Below, in pieces: positions 42,112-52,295 of a stretch of 64,000 bases of DNA. Below the pieces are notes generated by a model. The model ran no database searches. It worked only from the letters and a program-made list of their open reading frames with translations, and was not told the origin of the DNA. Source of the stretch: Planctomycetota bacterium (GTDB taxonomy: Bacteria; Planctomycetota; UBA1135); assembly GCA_002705055.1 (NCBI GenBank), contig PAHY01000017.1:1-64000 (forward strand). The letters are read 5' to 3'. How positions within the stretch are numbered: position 1 is the stretch's first letter; every line of letters begins with the position of its first letter. Made by a program: the position numbers and the translations under genes.

Positions 42112-42134
42112 AGTATAGGACAAATATCAGATAT
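42112..42134 (-). promoter_or_regulatory. lexA promoter region with AT-rich palindrome
   Basis: TATACT (42117-42112) ends 5 bases before the GTG start. The 11-bp palindrome ATATC-A-GATAT (42124-42134) lies in the spacer/-35 zone and overlaps the end of the glutamate-cysteine ligase gene. In such GC-rich DNA it stands out and is a candidate LexA box. Confidence 0.5.
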
Positions 42135-43488
42135 CCGTCGAGTCCTGCCGGGCCGGCTGCTCGAAGCGCACCGGAACCTGGGTGCAGCGCCCGTATTCGA
42201 CCGCCTGGGCGAGGTCTTGGCCCCAGTCACCCTGGAACAGATCGCGCACGCGCTCGCCGGTCGAAACTCCCTTCTCGAGCAGTTCGATCAGCGGCTGCAG
42301 GTAGATCGCGTCGCTCGGCTCGAGCACGGCGAGGTCGACCAGCTCGCGCGCGAGGTCCAACAGGCCGCGACGCCCGGGCGATTGCACCCGCTCCGGGAGC
42401 TGGGCAGCCAGGCCATCGCGATGCGCCGCATGCCAGGCTTCCTGGAACTCGGCCATCGTCCAGTCGGCGCACAGCGCTTCCGCCGCCCGCAGCGCGCCCT
42501 CGTCGTAGAAGACACCTTGGACCAGCGCCGCGAAGCCGAGCGTGCGGCGCGGGCACATGGTGTCGGCGCAGCGAATCTCGAGCTGCGGTCGGAAGCGCAC
42601 TTCCGGGAAGGGCGTGGAGAGATGCAGCTCCCAGTCCTCCATGGTCGCTTCGCCGCGGGCAAGGTGTTCGCGGAAGCTGCGACCGCGCAGATCGAACTGC
42701 TGCCCATCCCGTTCGATGAACAGCATCTCGAGGTCGAGCACCCACTCGATGTAGTCCTCGAAGCTGGCGTCCTCACGCATCAGCGACTCGACGAAGCCGC
42801 AGCGCGTGGCGTCGGTCTCGGTCCAGATGTGACCGCGCCAGGAGGCATAGCCGCTGAACTCTCCGGCTTTCAGCGCGCTGTTGGCGAACATCGCATTGAA
42901 GACCGGGGCCAGACGGAACACGGTGCGCAGCTTGCGCATCGCGTCGGCCTCATCGGAGTGATCGAAGTTGATCTGCACCCCGCAGGTGGTCTTCATCATC
43001 CACCAGCCCAGGCCGCCCTTGCCCCGCAGATAGGGCTCGAGGACGTCATAGCGTTGCTTGGGAATCCGCTCGAGTTCTTCCGGGCGCGCGGTCGGGTGCG
43101 AACCCAGCGTGACGAAGCGCACGCCGAACTCGCGCTCGGCCCGTGCCAACAGCTGCATGTACTCGTCGATCTCGATCGCGAGCTGCCCCAGGCTGCGCGC
43201 CGGCGAAGAACCGAACTCGAGCTGCGCCGCCGGCTCGAGCGTGAGCATGCGGCCGTCCTTGGCCTTCAGGCCCAGGATGTGCTCGCCATCCAGCTTGCGT
43301 TCCCAGCCCGTCCAGTCGGCGAACTGGTGCAGCAGCTGCGCCACGCCCGGCTGCGACGAATACTCGACCGCGCGGCCTTGCGGATCGGTGACGAACTGTT
43401 CGTACTCGACTCCGAGCGCCCAGTCCTGCCGAGGCCGGTGCCCCCGCTCGAGAGCGAGGCGAAGATCGTCGCGCGTCAGCGGAGGCAT
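42127..43488 (-). CDS. Glutamate-cysteine ligase, plant/alphaproteobacterial type
   Basis: 453 residues from the ATG at 43488; the frame is open further upstream but would run through the tRNA-Sec gene. GCS2-type features: GVEYEQFV near the N-terminus, LTLEPAAQLEFGSSP, TTCGVQINFDHSDEADAMRK-like substrate loop and SWRGHIWTETDATRCG. It catalyses the first, ATP-dependent step of glutathione synthesis. No glutathione synthetase is in the window, so gamma-glutamylcysteine or another thiol could be the end product. The start codon lies only 6 bases after the tRNA-Sec CCA, so its mRNA may be released by tRNA 3' processing. Confidence 0.92.
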   Translation of the reverse strand: MPPLTRDDLRLALERGHRPRQDWALGVEYEQFVTDPQGRAVEYSSQPGVAQLLHQFADWTGWERKLDGEHILGLKAKDGRMLTLEPAAQLEFGSSPARSLGQLAIEIDEYMQLLARAEREFGVRFVTLGSHPTARPEELERIPKQRYDVLEPYLRGKGGLGWWMMKTTCGVQINFDHSDEADAMRKLRTVFRLAPVFNAMFANSALKAGEFSGYASWRGHIWTETDATRCGFVESLMREDASFEDYIEWVLDLEMLFIERDGQQFDLRGRSFREHLARGEATMEDWELHLSTPFPEVRFRPQLEIRCADTMCPRRTLGFAALVQGVFYDEGALRAAEALCADWTMAEFQEAWHAAHRDGLAAQLPERVQSPGRRGLLDLARELVDLAVLEPSDAIYLQPLIELLEKGVSTGERVRDLFQGDWGQDLAQAVEYGRCTQVPVRFEQPARQDSTDI

Positions 43489-43494
43489 CGAGAA

Positions 43495-43591
43495 TGGCGG
43501 AGGTGCATGGGAATCGAACCCACCGGGCCTGGCCGAACCAAACCCCAGCGGCTTTGAAGGCCGTGCAGGACGCCAGCCCTGATCCACCTCC
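43495..43591 (-). tRNA. selC: tRNA-Sec (anticodon TCA)
   Basis: 97 bases including encoded CCA (43497-43495). Acceptor GGAGGTG pairs with CACCTCC and carries discriminator G. The anticodon arm ACGGC-CTTCAAA-GCCGC has anticodon TCA at 43557-43555. The extra arm is long, the T loop is TTCGATT, and the acceptor/T-arm geometry is extended as in selenocysteine tRNAs. UGA is also used as an ordinary stop in this window (recJ and both barrel genes), so a general UGA-Trp tRNA is excluded. It works with SelA, SelD and a SelB factor not present here. Confidence 0.93.
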
Positions 43592-43602
43592 AACCGAGGG
43601 CC

Positions 43603-43608
43603 ATCCTA
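43603..43608 (-). promoter_or_regulatory. Possible -10 element TAGGAT for tRNA-Sec
   Basis: TAGGAT ends 11 bases before the tRNA 5' end; its TAG is also the stop codon of the upstream kinase gene. Placement would put transcription start within a few bases of the tRNA. Confidence 0.4.
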
Positions 43609-46137
43609 GCGCTGCGGCCAGCCGGAGCGCGCGGTGCCCCAGAAATGGAGCTGACCATTTTGTGTCACAGCCAGCAGCCCGTCCTGTGCGGGCAGGAAGA
43701 ACAGCCCGACCAGGAGATCGCCTGAGACGGTGAGTTCGAGCACCGTCTCTCCGCCCGGCACGCTGCGCAGACTGACCCGCCCCGCCAAGGGCGAGGCCCG
43801 CGCCTCCAGTGCCTCCTGCGGATGACGCGCGGTGAGCGTGGGCCAACGCCATGGATCCTGCGGTCGCTCGGCCGCGCCCAGCTGTGCCGCCGCATGATGC
43901 AGCGCGGGGGCCGCGCTCTGAGTCAGCTGCGCGAGATCCCAGGCCTCCGTCCCGCCCCCTTCTAGCCGCAGCAGGAGGTGCTCCTGAGCGAGGTCCAAGG
44001 CGGCCGCCACGACCGGCTGCGCGGTGCGCCGCGACCAGCGCGCGGGCAGCGGCTCGGGCCGCCACAGCTGCACCGCCCCGTCGTCTCCTCCGGTCAGCAG
44101 GTAGCGCCCACGCGGGTCCACCTCGACCACGTTGGTGAACGCAAAGTGCGCGCGGAAGCCGCGCTGCACGCCGGCATGCGGATCGAGCCGGTGCACCCAG
44201 CCATCTTTGCGCCCGAGCAGCCAGCTTTGGCCGTCGGGTGCCAGCGCGAGACTCTGAATCGCCGAGTCCCCCTGCCAGCTCCATACCGAAGCGGACCGCC
44301 CCGCGGCATCCCAACGCAAGCGCTGTACCGAGCCATCCAGACTCGCGGTCCACAGGCTGCCGTCGTCCGCATACTCAAGATCAAAGACCTGGCCGTCGTG
44401 GAAGACCGCCCGCTCGCCGCGCGGCGTGCCGTCCGCGCTGGCAAAGCGCTGCACGCCGTCCGTGCCATCGGCGACCGCAAACTCGCGGCCATCGGGCGAG
44501 AAGCGCAGCGTGATCGCGCGCGGCTCGACGAACACTTCGAAGCGCTTGCTGCCGTCGAGCGGGTCCCAGATGTGCACCCCGCCGCCATCGTCGATCGTGG
44601 CGATGCTCCGGCCATCCGGACTGAACGCAGCCCAGCCGACTCCGTACTCGTGCTGCTCGTAGCTGAGCACCGGCTCGAGCGTCTCGGTGTCGTAGATGCG
44701 GACGATCGAGTCATCGCCCCCCGCAGCCAGCCAGTGGCCGTCCGGGCTGAACGCGACCGCGAAGACTCCATAGTCGAAGCGGTCCAGTTCGCGGGCTTCC
44801 CGACCGGAGAGCGCGTTCCACCAGCGCAGGGAACCATCGCCGAAGCCGGCGGCGACGAAGCGGCCGCTGGGGTGAATGGCGGCGCCCAGGAGCCGCGGCC
44901 CGCCCGGCGGCTGCAGGGTGATCAGCGGGCGCTCCATGCGCTGCTCGAGGTAGCGTCCCGCCCAGTCACGCAGCTCGGGCTCAGTCAGCGCGAGCAGTTC
45001 GCGCGCATCGCCGAACCGGAAGCCATCCACCGCGCGACCGGCGGCGCGCATCAGGATGGCGTGCCGTTGCGTGCGCGCCATCGACAGGCTCTGCTCGGCT
45101 CGGTAGGTGGCCTGCTCGGCGACGTCCAGTTCGGCCAGCGTGAAACCCAGAGCGGTCAGCGACACCGAACCGACCAGCGACGCGGCGGCCATCCGCGGAT
45201 GGCGTTTCATCCAAGTGCGCAGGCGGCGCGCCCAGCTGGGAGCCTGCGCGCGCACCGGCTCATGACGCAGGAAACGATGCAGATCCGCGGCGAAGTCCGC
45301 CATCGAGGCGTAGCGCTGGCGCGGCTCCTTCTCCATGGCCTTACGGCAGATCAGCGCAAGGTCCGCCGGCAGCTGCGGACGCAGCTTGCGCGGCGCGATC
45401 GGATCGCGATGAAGAATGGCGTGGAAGACCTGCTCCGGGGTCTCGCCCTCGACCGGACGCCGCAGGCACAACAGCTGGTACAGCGTGGCGCCCAGCGAAT
45501 AGACGTCGCAGCGGCCATCACGGCTGAAGGTGCCGAGCCGCACCTGCTCCGGACACATGTAAAACGGCGTGCCCGACATCTCGCCGGTCCGTGACAGGCC
45601 GACGCGATCCCGAATGCTGGCAAGGCCAAAGTCGACCAGCCGCACCCGCCCCTCGCGATCGAGCAGCAGATTGGCCGGCTTCAGATCGCGGTGCAGGACG
45701 CCCGCCGCGTGGGCCTCCGCCAGCGCTTCGGCGACCTCCGCGATCCAGGCCGCGACCCGGCGGACATGATCGGCGGGCAGCTTGCTGGGATCCGCGCGCC
45801 ACTCCTCCCAGACCGATTCCAGATCGCGCGCCCCCGGCACCAGCTCGGTGACGATGTAGGGAATCCCGCGGGTGATGCCGCGCCCGAACACCCGCACCAC
45901 CGCCGGGTGCGTCAGTCGGCCTGCGGCCTCGGCCTCGCGCAGGAAGCGCTCGCCGTCGTCGGCGCTGCTGTCAAAGCGCGGATGAAAGACCTTGAGGGCG
46001 ACACGCCGGCGCAGCGCCAGCTCCTCGGCCTCGAAGACGACGGCCATGCCGCCGCGGCCAATTTCGCGGTGAAGCCGGTAGCCTCCGAACTCGGAGCCGG
46101 CCGCGACCAGGGGAATATCTGCTGGGAGGACGACCAA
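43606..46137 (-). CDS. Ser/Thr protein kinase fused to WD40 propeller
   Basis: About 843 residues from a TTG at 46137. The start is uncertain: the frame stays open through selD but offers no ATG or GTG close to the kinase domain. The Pkn2-type kinase domain (about 15-285) has glycine loop [13 protein letters not shown], Lys in [20 protein letters not shown] (VDFGLAS) and a [10 protein letters not shown] activation segment. A membrane helix at about 330-350 ([15 protein letters not shown]) separates it from a long WD40 region with repeated FSPDG(H/R)WLA/S blocks. Predicted: cytoplasmic kinase, propeller on the periplasmic side. It follows selD after about 60 bases. Confidence 0.85.
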
Positions 46138-46198: not shown

Positions 46199-47230
46199 CT
46201 AGCGCAAGCGCACCATAGCCTCGCCCGCCTGCACTTCTCCAACGAAAGCGGGCGGCTGCTCGGCGAGCGCTTGCTCGAAGGCGGCGGCGCCTTCGGGGGG
46301 CACGGCGACCAACAGGCCGCCCGAGGTCTCAGCATCGAAGCAGAGCGAGGCCAGCCATGCCGGGATCTCGTCCGAGATCTCGACTGCGGCGGCGAGGTTC
46401 TCGCGACCGCGCGCGGCCGCACCGGAAAAGACACCGTCGGCGGCAAGCTGAGCCGCGCCTTCGTACAGCGGCAGCGCCACCCCGCGCAGCTCCAGGGTGA
46501 CCCCGGAGGCGCGCGCCATGTTCATCGCGTGCCCGAACAACCCAAAGCCGGTGATGTCGGTGGCGGCCCGCGCTCCGGCGGCCCGCATCGCGACCAGCCC
46601 CTGCTTGTTGAGCCGCGCCATGCCGGCGACCGCGGCGGCTTCGTCCTCGGGCCGGACCGCGCCGCGCTTGACCCCGGTGGTGATCGAACCCGAGCCCAGC
46701 GGCTTCGTGAGGTACAGCAGATCCCCCGGCTGACAGCCCGCCTGCGTGATCAGCTGCTCTTCGCTGGCATCGCCGAAGACGGCGAAGCCGAACAGCGGCT
46801 CCTCGGCGCGGACGGTGTGTCCGCCCACCCAGATCGCCCCCGACTCGCGAACCTTGGCGACCGCGGCGTCAAAGATCGGCGTGAGGGTCTCGTCGTCCCA
46901 GTCGGCCGGGAAGCCGGCGATGTTCAGGACGACGCGCGGCTCGCCGCCGCAGGCGTAGATGTCCGAGAGGCTATTGGCCGCCGCGATCGCCCCGAAGGCC
47001 GCCGGATCGTCGACGACTGGCGGGAAGAAGTCGACGGTGTACAGCTGCATCCGGCCGTCGGCAGCGCGCACGATCCCCGCGTCGTCGAAGCCTTCCGGCC
47101 CCACAACCAGGGTGTCCGCGACCGCGGCGGGGGCAATCCGACGCAGAACCTGCGCCAGCTGCCCCTGCGGGAGCTTGGCCGCTCAACCGCTACAGGCGGC
47201 GTATTCAGTCAGGCGCTTGGTCCGTGCCAT
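46199..47230 (-). CDS. selD: Selenide, water dikinase containing selenocysteine
   Basis: 343 residues when the in-frame TGA at 47185-47183 is read as Sec16: the N-terminus then reads [21 protein letters not shown], matching the canonical CSG(C/U)AAK active-site motif. The downstream ATPase features [21 protein letters not shown] and [10 protein letters not shown] are intact, and the length is normal. It makes selenophosphate from selenide and ATP for Sec-tRNA synthesis. TAGAAT ends 6 bases before the ATG. Stopping at TGA, or starting at the internal codon at 47104, would lose the active site. tRNA-Sec and selA nearby support Sec insertion. Confidence 0.95.
47154..47179 (-). promoter_or_regulatory. 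selD: Candidate bacterial SECIS hairpin in selD
   Basis: Starting 3 bases after the UGA: GCC-A-AGCT, an internal CCC/GGG with a small apical loop rich in G/C, then AGCT-GGC. This gives a stem with one bulged A. Position and size suit a SelB-bound bSECIS element within the coding region. The pairing was found by eye. Confidence 0.6.
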
Positions 47231-50013: not shown

Positions 50014-50946
50014 ATGGAAGCTCCGTGGATGCGCCGCGTGCTGCTCGCAGCCGCCGCCTACAACCTGATCTGGGGCGGGCTGGTCGTGCTGTTCCCGCTG
50101 GCCTGGTTCGACTGGCTCGGCGCGCCCCACCCGCGCTACCCCGGGATCTGGCAATGCGTCGGCATGATCGTCGGCGTGTACGGGCTGGGCTACGCGATCG
50201 CGGCCCGCGATCCGATCCGTCACTGGCCGATCGTGCTGGTCGGTCTGCTGGGCAAGATCCTCGGGCCGCTGGGTTTCCTGTTCGCCTGGCAGCGCGGTGA
50301 ACTGCCCGGCAGCTTCGCCTGGATCCTGCTCAGCAACGATCTGATCTGGTGGATCCCTTTCGTCGCGATCCTCGGCAGGGCTGCGCGCGTGCACGCCGAG
50401 GGCGATCAGCCGCGGGCGGCCGCGCTGCCCCCGCTGCAGGCGATGGCCCGCGCCAGAACCCAGCATGGCACGACCCTGCTGGAGCTCAGCCATGACCGCG
50501 AGCTGCTGCTCGTCTTCCTGCGCCATCGCGGCTGCACCTTCTGTCGCGAGGCGCTCGCCGATCTGCGCGAACAGCGCTCGCAGATCGAGGCCGTCGGCAC
50601 CATCCCGGTGATCGTGCACCTCAGCGATGCCGCGCGCGCCGAGGCCTGGCTCGACGAGTACGGGCTCGCCGACCTGCCTCGCATCGCGGACCCCAGCCGA
50701 GAGCTGTACGCCTCCTTTGATCTGCAGCGCGGCGGACCGCTCGCCCTGTTCGGACCGAAGGTCTGGCTGCGCGGACTGCGCGCGGCGCTCGCTGGGCACG
50801 GCCTGGGCCCGCTCGACGGCGACGGCCTGCAAATGCCCGGCGCCTTTCTGGTGCGCGACGGCAAGATCCGAATGGCTTTCCGCCACCGCAGCGCGGCGGA
50901 TCGACCGGACTACGCGCGCTTGGCCGCGGCGATGACCAAAGCCTGA
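50014..50946 (+). CDS. Membrane protein with peroxiredoxin-like (AhpC/TSA-2) domain
   Basis: 310 residues from the ATG at 50014. The N-terminal half has about four helices (residues 8-125, short loops), resembling small alkyl-hydroperoxide-associated membrane modules. The C-terminal half (about 150-310) is a thioredoxin-fold Prx-like2 domain with active site Cys-Thr-Phe-Cys (HRGCTFCREAL) and a late PGAFLVRDGKI. It would reduce peroxides or exchange disulfides at the membrane. In related families the first Cys is sometimes Sec; here both are Cys codons. Its 3' end overlaps selA by 37 bases, convergent. Confidence 0.8.
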   Translation: MEAPWMRRVLLAAAAYNLIWGGLVVLFPLAWFDWLGAPHPRYPGIWQCVGMIVGVYGLGYAIAARDPIRHWPIVLVGLLGKILGPLGFLFAWQRGELPGSFAWILLSNDLIWWIPFVAILGRAARVHAEGDQPRAAALPPLQAMARARTQHGTTLLELSHDRELLLVFLRHRGCTFCREALADLREQRSQIEAVGTIPVIVHLSDAARAEAWLDEYGLADLPRIADPSRELYASFDLQRGGPLALFGPKVWLRGLRAALAGHGLGPLDGDGLQMPGAFLVRDGKIRMAFRHRSAADRPDYARLAAAMTKA

Positions 50947-52295
50947 AGCTCGGCGTCGCGCTGCGGATCGATGGTGCGCAGGTCGAGGACCACGCCGCCG
51001 TCCTGGACGCGGGCGAAGACCCCTGGGCGCCCCATCCGCAAGGCGCGGGCGAATGCGTCGATCTCGACGCCGGCAGGCGGCTCGACCAGGACGCCGCGCC
51101 CCTCCAGGTCGCGGATCGGGGCCGCGCCCGAGCCGACTCGGCCCGCCGTCTCAATGACCCGGGCCGAGACGCCGGCCGCGACCAGGGCGGTCGCCAACGC
51201 TTCCGCGCGCGGGGCCAGTTCGTCGACGCCGAGGGCCAGCTGACGGAGCGCCGGAACCCGGGCCAGGGCGTGTTCTTCGCCCAAGGCGTGCAGCGACAGC
51301 GTGGCCTCGAGCGCCGCCAGCAGCGTCTTGTCGAGCCGCAGGCTGCGAGTGAGCATGTCGCTGCGCAGCTTCTCGACCAGCGGCTTCGGCCCGACGATCA
51401 GACCGGCCTGCGGCCCGCCCAGCAGCTTGTCGCCCGAGAAGGTCACCAGATCGCAGCCTGCCTGCAGCGCGGCCGCGACCGAGGGCTCTTCCTCGGCGCC
51501 GGGCAGGCCGGCGCCGCGCAGCACGCCCGAGCCGAGGTCGTACACCAGCGGCACGCCGCGTTCGCGACACAGCTGGGCGATCTCGTGGGCCTCCGGCTCG
51601 CCGGTGAAGCCGTGCAGCTCGAAGTTGGATCGATGCACCCGCAGCACGCAGCCCACATCCGGGTCTTCTAGCGCGGCCGCATAGTCGCGCAGATGGACCC
51701 GATTGGTCGTGCCGATCTCGATCAGGCGCGCGCCTGCGGAGCGCACCACCTCGGGCATCCGGTAGGCCCCGCCGATCTCGACCATTTCGGTGCGGGCCAG
51801 CACGCAGCTGCGCCCACGCGCCAGCGCCGCCACCGCCAGGGTGAGAGCCGCGGCGTTGTTGTTGACCGCCAGGCCGGCCTCGGCGCCGGTGATCTCGGCG
51901 AGGAGCGCCGACACCGCGCGCTCGCGACGGCCGCGGCGCCCGGACTGCGGGTCGACCTCGAGCACGGCCGCGCCGCTGGCCGCCTGCGCCGCGGCGATGG
52001 CCTCCGGGGCCCAGGGAGCGCGCCCTAGGTTGGTATGGAGCACCACGCCGGTCGCATTGAGCGCCTCGCGCAGCCGCATCGCCGGGAGCACCTGGAGGCG
52101 ATCGTCGACCTCCTGCCAGAACCCCTCGTCGAGCTCGCGCGCCGTGCCAGCGCGGCAATCCGAGCGCAGGCGATCGAGAGTTGCTGCCAGCGCCGCGCGA
52201 TGGGCCTCGCGCCCCCCCGCCAGGCCGCGCTCTGCGGCCGCGTCGAGGAGCTCGTTCATCGGCGGAATGCGGGGAAACGAAGTCGCGCGCGCCAC
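50910..52295 (-). CDS. selA: L-seryl-tRNA(Sec) selenium transferase
   Basis: 461 residues from the GTG at 52295, matching the roughly 460 of other SelA proteins; the GTG is supported by TAGGAT ending 6 bases upstream. PLP-enzyme features: LNATGVVLHTNLGR in the N-terminal third, a VYDLGSG loop at about 251-257, and the PLP-binding Lys290 in FSGDKLLGGPQAG. It converts Ser-tRNA-Sec to Sec-tRNA-Sec with selenophosphate from SelD. It lies about 3.7 kb from selD and 7.3 kb from tRNA-Sec, divergent from recJ. Confidence 0.97.
   Translation of the reverse strand: MARATSFPRIPPMNELLDAAAERGLAGGREAHRAALAATLDRLRSDCRAGTARELDEGFWQEVDDRLQVLPAMRLREALNATGVVLHTNLGRAPWAPEAIAAAQAASGAAVLEVDPQSGRRGRRERAVSALLAEITGAEAGLAVNNNAAALTLAVAALARGRSCVLARTEMVEIGGAYRMPEVVRSAGARLIEIGTTNRVHLRDYAAALEDPDVGCVLRVHRSNFELHGFTGEPEAHEIAQLCRERGVPLVYDLGSGVLRGAGLPGAEEEPSVAAALQAGCDLVTFSGDKLLGGPQAGLIVGPKPLVEKLRSDMLTRSLRLDKTLLAALEATLSLHALGEEHALARVPALRQLALGVDELAPRAEALATALVAAGVSARVIETAGRVGSGAAPIRDLEGRGVLVEPPAGVEIDAFARALRMGRPGVFARVQDGGVVLDLRTIDPQRDAELQALVIAAAKRA

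Follow-up and report, generated by a model that had tools for sequence, protein, structure and literature searches.

The selD gene and its in-frame UGA codon

The window, by which we mean the whole stretch of 64,000 nucleotides analyzed here, contains on its reverse strand (-) the gene selD for selenide water dikinase, or selenophosphate synthetase, at positions 46199-47230. When TGA is translated as selenocysteine (Sec, U), this interval forms a single open frame of 343 residues that ends in TAG and has U at codon 16. The only interruption of the frame is that TGA, at 47185-47183 (-), in the motif AACSG-U-AAK, exactly where a previous sequence-only reading of this DNA had described a selD gene split by an in-frame UGA at codon 16, in a CSG-U-AAK motif. 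With Cys replacing U, the whole product reaches 321.8 bits with the SelD family model TIGR00476, whose cut-off is 125, and it also matches PF00586 and PF02769. The alignment with the SelD structure 3u0o of the PDB (E=4e-56) spans residues 5-325 of the product and covers both sides of the UGA. In the comparison with Cys-type enzymes that the sequence-only reading had suggested as a check, U16 (SGU-AAK) is aligned to the catalytic Cys of 3u0o and of 2yye; the fold and the family are the same, with Cys in 3u0o in place of the Sec predicted here. G15, residue 16, A17, A18, and K19 are invariant in the SelD alignment, and the conserved Lys that follows the UGA is present.

Under the standard code, the largest open reading frame starts at an internal GTG, covers 46199-47104, and encodes 301 residues without the active-site residue. 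A mechanical reading of open frames would drop the first 42 residues of SelD, including the catalytic one, as had been anticipated for automated annotation. This is chiefly an annotation matter, and some current pipelines do handle selenoproteins. A codon-usage scan of the window for further UGA-containing genes left selD as the only candidate supported by homology.

Genes for Sec decoding and their order around selD

The gene for tRNA-Sec (selC, anticodon TCA) lies at 43495-43591 (-); it was detected by ARAGORN and scores 72.9 bits with the Rfam family RF01852, for which the gathering score is 47. The selA gene for L-seryl-tRNA(Sec) selenium transferase is found at 50910-52295 (-), with 433.5 bits for TIGR00474 and a match to PF03841. 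Both had been placed within 9 kb of selD in the sequence-only reading, and both lie within 4 kb of it. The selB gene, whose absence from the genome was the outcome that the sequence-only reading had set against its own proposal, was found outside the window in the same genome (contig C64, 646 residues), and ybbB/selU is also present elsewhere in it. The Sec-decoding set, consisting of selA, selB, tRNA-Sec, and selD, is contained in one genome, that of a metagenome-assembled member of the Planctomycetota, about 85% complete, which was examined by targeted searches.

The order of the genes in the window is selA, selD, tRNA-Sec, and a plant-type glutamate-cysteine ligase (GCS2, 42127-43488, -) that adjoins tRNA-Sec; other genes, encoded on the opposite strand, separate the first two. 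A gene for a Ser/Thr protein kinase with WD40 repeats (43606-46137, -) stands between selD and tRNA-Sec. It is absent from that place in the closest relatives, in which tRNA-Sec comes directly after selD, at a distance of 15-215 nt in seven close named relatives (L060-L065, L068). At locus L060, selA directly precedes selD, and the glutamate-cysteine ligase, which directly follows tRNA-Sec in L065, is located about 4 kb beyond it. These genes might be regarded as a conserved neighbourhood in which the Sec of SelD makes the selenium economy self-amplifying and the thiols derived from the ligase feed selenide production; the order is shared with relatives, and we nevertheless judge such a functional unit very unlikely.

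Conservation of the UGA codon among relatives

When the single selD protein was used as the query against genome contigs, no relative was found, while the alignment used as the query led to named relatives, all of them metagenome-assembled Planctomycetota. Our order-wide sample comprises 61 genomes, counting that of the window, and provides 55 full-length SelD sequences; two matches truncated before the site and four genomes with distant paralogues only were left outside this count. Of the 55, 53 have exactly one TGA: 22 belong to the same family, in which no full-length SelD departs from this pattern, and 31 come from elsewhere in the order. The two sequences without TGA (genomes G040 and G027, loci L166 and L167) both have Cys at the site. 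In a sample of the phylum that includes 294 genomes, among the matches listed, 17 were full-length and free of a stop, one more was truncated, and every other one had one TGA. Independent relatives thus carry TGA where the sequence-only reading had considered that TGC or TGT might be revealed by resequencing, and the conservation of TGA at the same codon across them excludes an assembly error.

Two side observations concern the Cys-type genes. A genome of another Planctomycetota family (G120:C3:82400-86700, L173) carries selD twice, at a distance of about 2.6 kb; the site is TGA in one copy and Cys in the other, which makes them a natural Sec/Cys pair. In a group of Cys-type SelD genes (L167, L170, L171), the frame continues upstream into an extension with many CxC motifs (HCVCDPKKPCPCDL...).

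The hairpin downstream of the UGA

The RNA located 3' of the UGA folds as CUGGCGCAG-GUU-CUGCGUCGG (47158-47138, -), a bacterial SECIS-type hairpin. Its stem has 9 bp, and the apical loop, GUU, occupies 47149-47147 at a distance of 33 nt from the UGA. In the minimum free energy fold, the stem is lengthened to 16 bp and reaches from 47165 to 47130. The SECIS-like stem mentioned in the sequence-only reading does exist, but the span given for it, 47140-47190, cuts off the 3' arm. According to the bacterial SECIS model, the loop has 3-9 nt with a G in its first two positions and lies 16-37 nt from the UGA (PMC13188914); the selD hairpin agrees with this description, since its loop begins with G and the distance is 33 nt. 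The window is rich in GC, and hairpins that agree with the model follow 69% of all its TGAs, with 2.4% as stable as that of selD. Because such hairpins are frequent, that of selD constitutes weak proof when considered alone.

The comparison of relatives is more informative. The apical pairs of the hairpin persist across 22 relatives, and the closing pair (36-40) is G-C in 14 of the 22 and A-U in seven, with both states occurring within one genus and both sites being synonymous (CAG/CAA and CTG/TTG). Our claim is limited to the apical pairs: the outer stem varies, and sliding its 3' arm by +1 column scores equally well, so covariation of the outer stem was rejected. The ratio of synonymous diversity to its expectation has a mean of 0.60 for the five codons of the hairpin, against 0.94 for the remainder of selD, and the four stretches with the lowest synonymous diversity, among 234 stretches of five codons, overlap the hairpin. 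The Val codon of the loop is GTT in 18 of the 22 sequences, while GTT accounts for 138 of 698 Val codons gene-wide in the same selD set. The low synonymous diversity and the bias toward GTT indicate that selection at the nucleotide level acts where a SECIS is expected. This constraint, together with a TGA kept in 53 of 55 SelD, excludes chance.

When the whole genome was searched with a covariance model built on the selD SECIS, selD itself was the only credible match (80 bits). The next two matches, L140, in the frame of a GspE/PilB-like ATPase, and L141, have no TGA at the start of the model and were rejected.

Proposed function and alternative explanations

The TGA in 53 of 55 SelD, the hairpin, and the Sec machinery strongly support the proposal, already made in the sequence-only reading, that selD is itself predicted to be a UGA-encoded selenoprotein. 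Its product is almost certainly a functional selenophosphate synthetase with Sec as catalytic residue 16, where the insertion of Sec and the activity of the enzyme are what we infer from the gene, its UGA, and the complete machinery. In the mechanism that we propose, SelB would recognize the hairpin that closely follows UGA-16 and bring Sec-tRNA(Sec) to this codon, which the ribosome would read as Sec to produce the full-length enzyme. Sec16, in the N-terminal loop of SelD, would serve the synthesis of selenophosphate, which would be supplied to SelA for the formation of Sec-tRNA and, because ybbB is present, presumably also used for 2-selenouridine in tRNA. The synthesis of SelD would then depend on SelD made earlier.

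This self-dependence is what the sequence-only reading had called a built-in feedback. One extension, which adds to the explanation above and does not replace it, is that the UGA of selD acts as a selenium-dependent attenuator, so that the supply of Sec-tRNA sets the readthrough and the level of SelD and tunes the selenium economy. The self-dependence follows logically from a Sec-containing SelD, and Sec decoding has been suggested to be possibly maintained for a SelD that supports itself and selenouridine synthesis, an idea of self-sustainment discussed in 2006 (PMC1794560). However, any gene with a UGA-encoded Sec shares the same dependence, and a regulatory RNA family was looked for near selD and none was found. 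Five relatives with a Cys-type SelD were tested for selB, which scored above the cut-off in four of them (G040, G027, G325, and G327; the match in G027 leaves some of the family model uncovered) and not in G113. Most of these relatives keep selB, which indicates that Sec in SelD is an option and not a requirement for Sec decoding, and that the loop is dispensable. We consider attenuation unlikely: the logical part of the feedback claim stands and would apply to any Sec-type SelD, whereas regulation, of which no sign was seen in the sequence, is at most conjectural.

A sequencing error might have created the TGA, or a selD of the Cys type or in decay might have acquired it as a nonsense mutation. 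This alternative deserves attention for a metagenome assembly of 85% completeness, in which one in-frame stop in one genome would look identical; the same TGA codon in 53 genomes, in a conserved frame that is otherwise intact, makes it extremely improbable. Equally negligible is a reading of TGA as Trp or Gly through a genome-wide change of the code, or by plain readthrough, which is formally possible in an uncultured lineage and for which we found no supporting evidence: of 12 ordinary window genes that were checked, 7 end in TGA, which is therefore not globally reassigned, the site demands Cys or Sec and has Cys in relatives, and the genome has a complete Sec system.

Comparison with known systems and other predicted selenoproteins

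Sec-containing SelD, or SPS2, is present in many bacteria, in some archaea, and in eukaryotes as SEPHS2. Selenophosphate synthetase is itself often a selenoprotein (PMC4561486), and few bacterial selenoproteins are as common as the Sec-type SelD (PMC1794560, PMC4561486, PMC13188914). The SelD predicted here shares with them a UGA-encoded Sec at the catalytic N-terminal loop and, as in other bacteria, a SECIS just downstream; it differs only in its lineage, a little-studied order of Planctomycetota, and in the local gene order, with no functional difference found. Among planctomycetes, complete sets of Sec insertion genes, in some cases with ybbB, have been described for the Porphyra isolates P1 and P2, Gemmata, and Isosphaera (PMC4807772). 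The genome of the window resembles these in its complete set of Sec insertion genes and, as in some of them, ybbB, and is distinguished by the order selA, selD, tRNA-Sec, and glutamate-cysteine ligase with inserted genes, by a selB located elsewhere, and by the lack of a detected Sec-type formate dehydrogenase (FdhA). Sec-type SelD enzymes are long established in the literature and occur widely in Planctomycetota, and the present case is an ordinary one of a known kind.

A Sec-type FdhA was not found in the genome, which is about 85% complete; one match to the alpha subunit of formate dehydrogenase (L151) was rejected, as it scores under the family cut-off and its frame contains no internal stop. 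Organisms that decode Sec and lack FdhA have been reported to contain a Sec-type SelD and, mostly, the selenouridine trait as well (PMC1794560), and this genome fits that pattern within the limits of its completeness.

A scan of the same genome identified five AhpC-TSA/TlpA-like genes with an in-frame TGA at the position of a redox Cys, which brings the total of predicted selenoproteins to at least six when SelD is included; at least these five further genes could be mis-annotated in the same manner. One of the five encodes a Bcp-type peroxiredoxin (YPKADTPGUTK), and the other four are thioredoxin/TlpA-like, with the motifs YHUGGC, DWUGPC, SWUAGC, and PGUGPC. These thioredoxin-fold genes (L157, L158, L161, L168, and L169) are located on contigs C5, C49, C35, C1, and C43. 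A hairpin that agrees with the SECIS model follows the TGA in all three of those tested (L157, L158, and L161), and it is unusually stable in L161 only.
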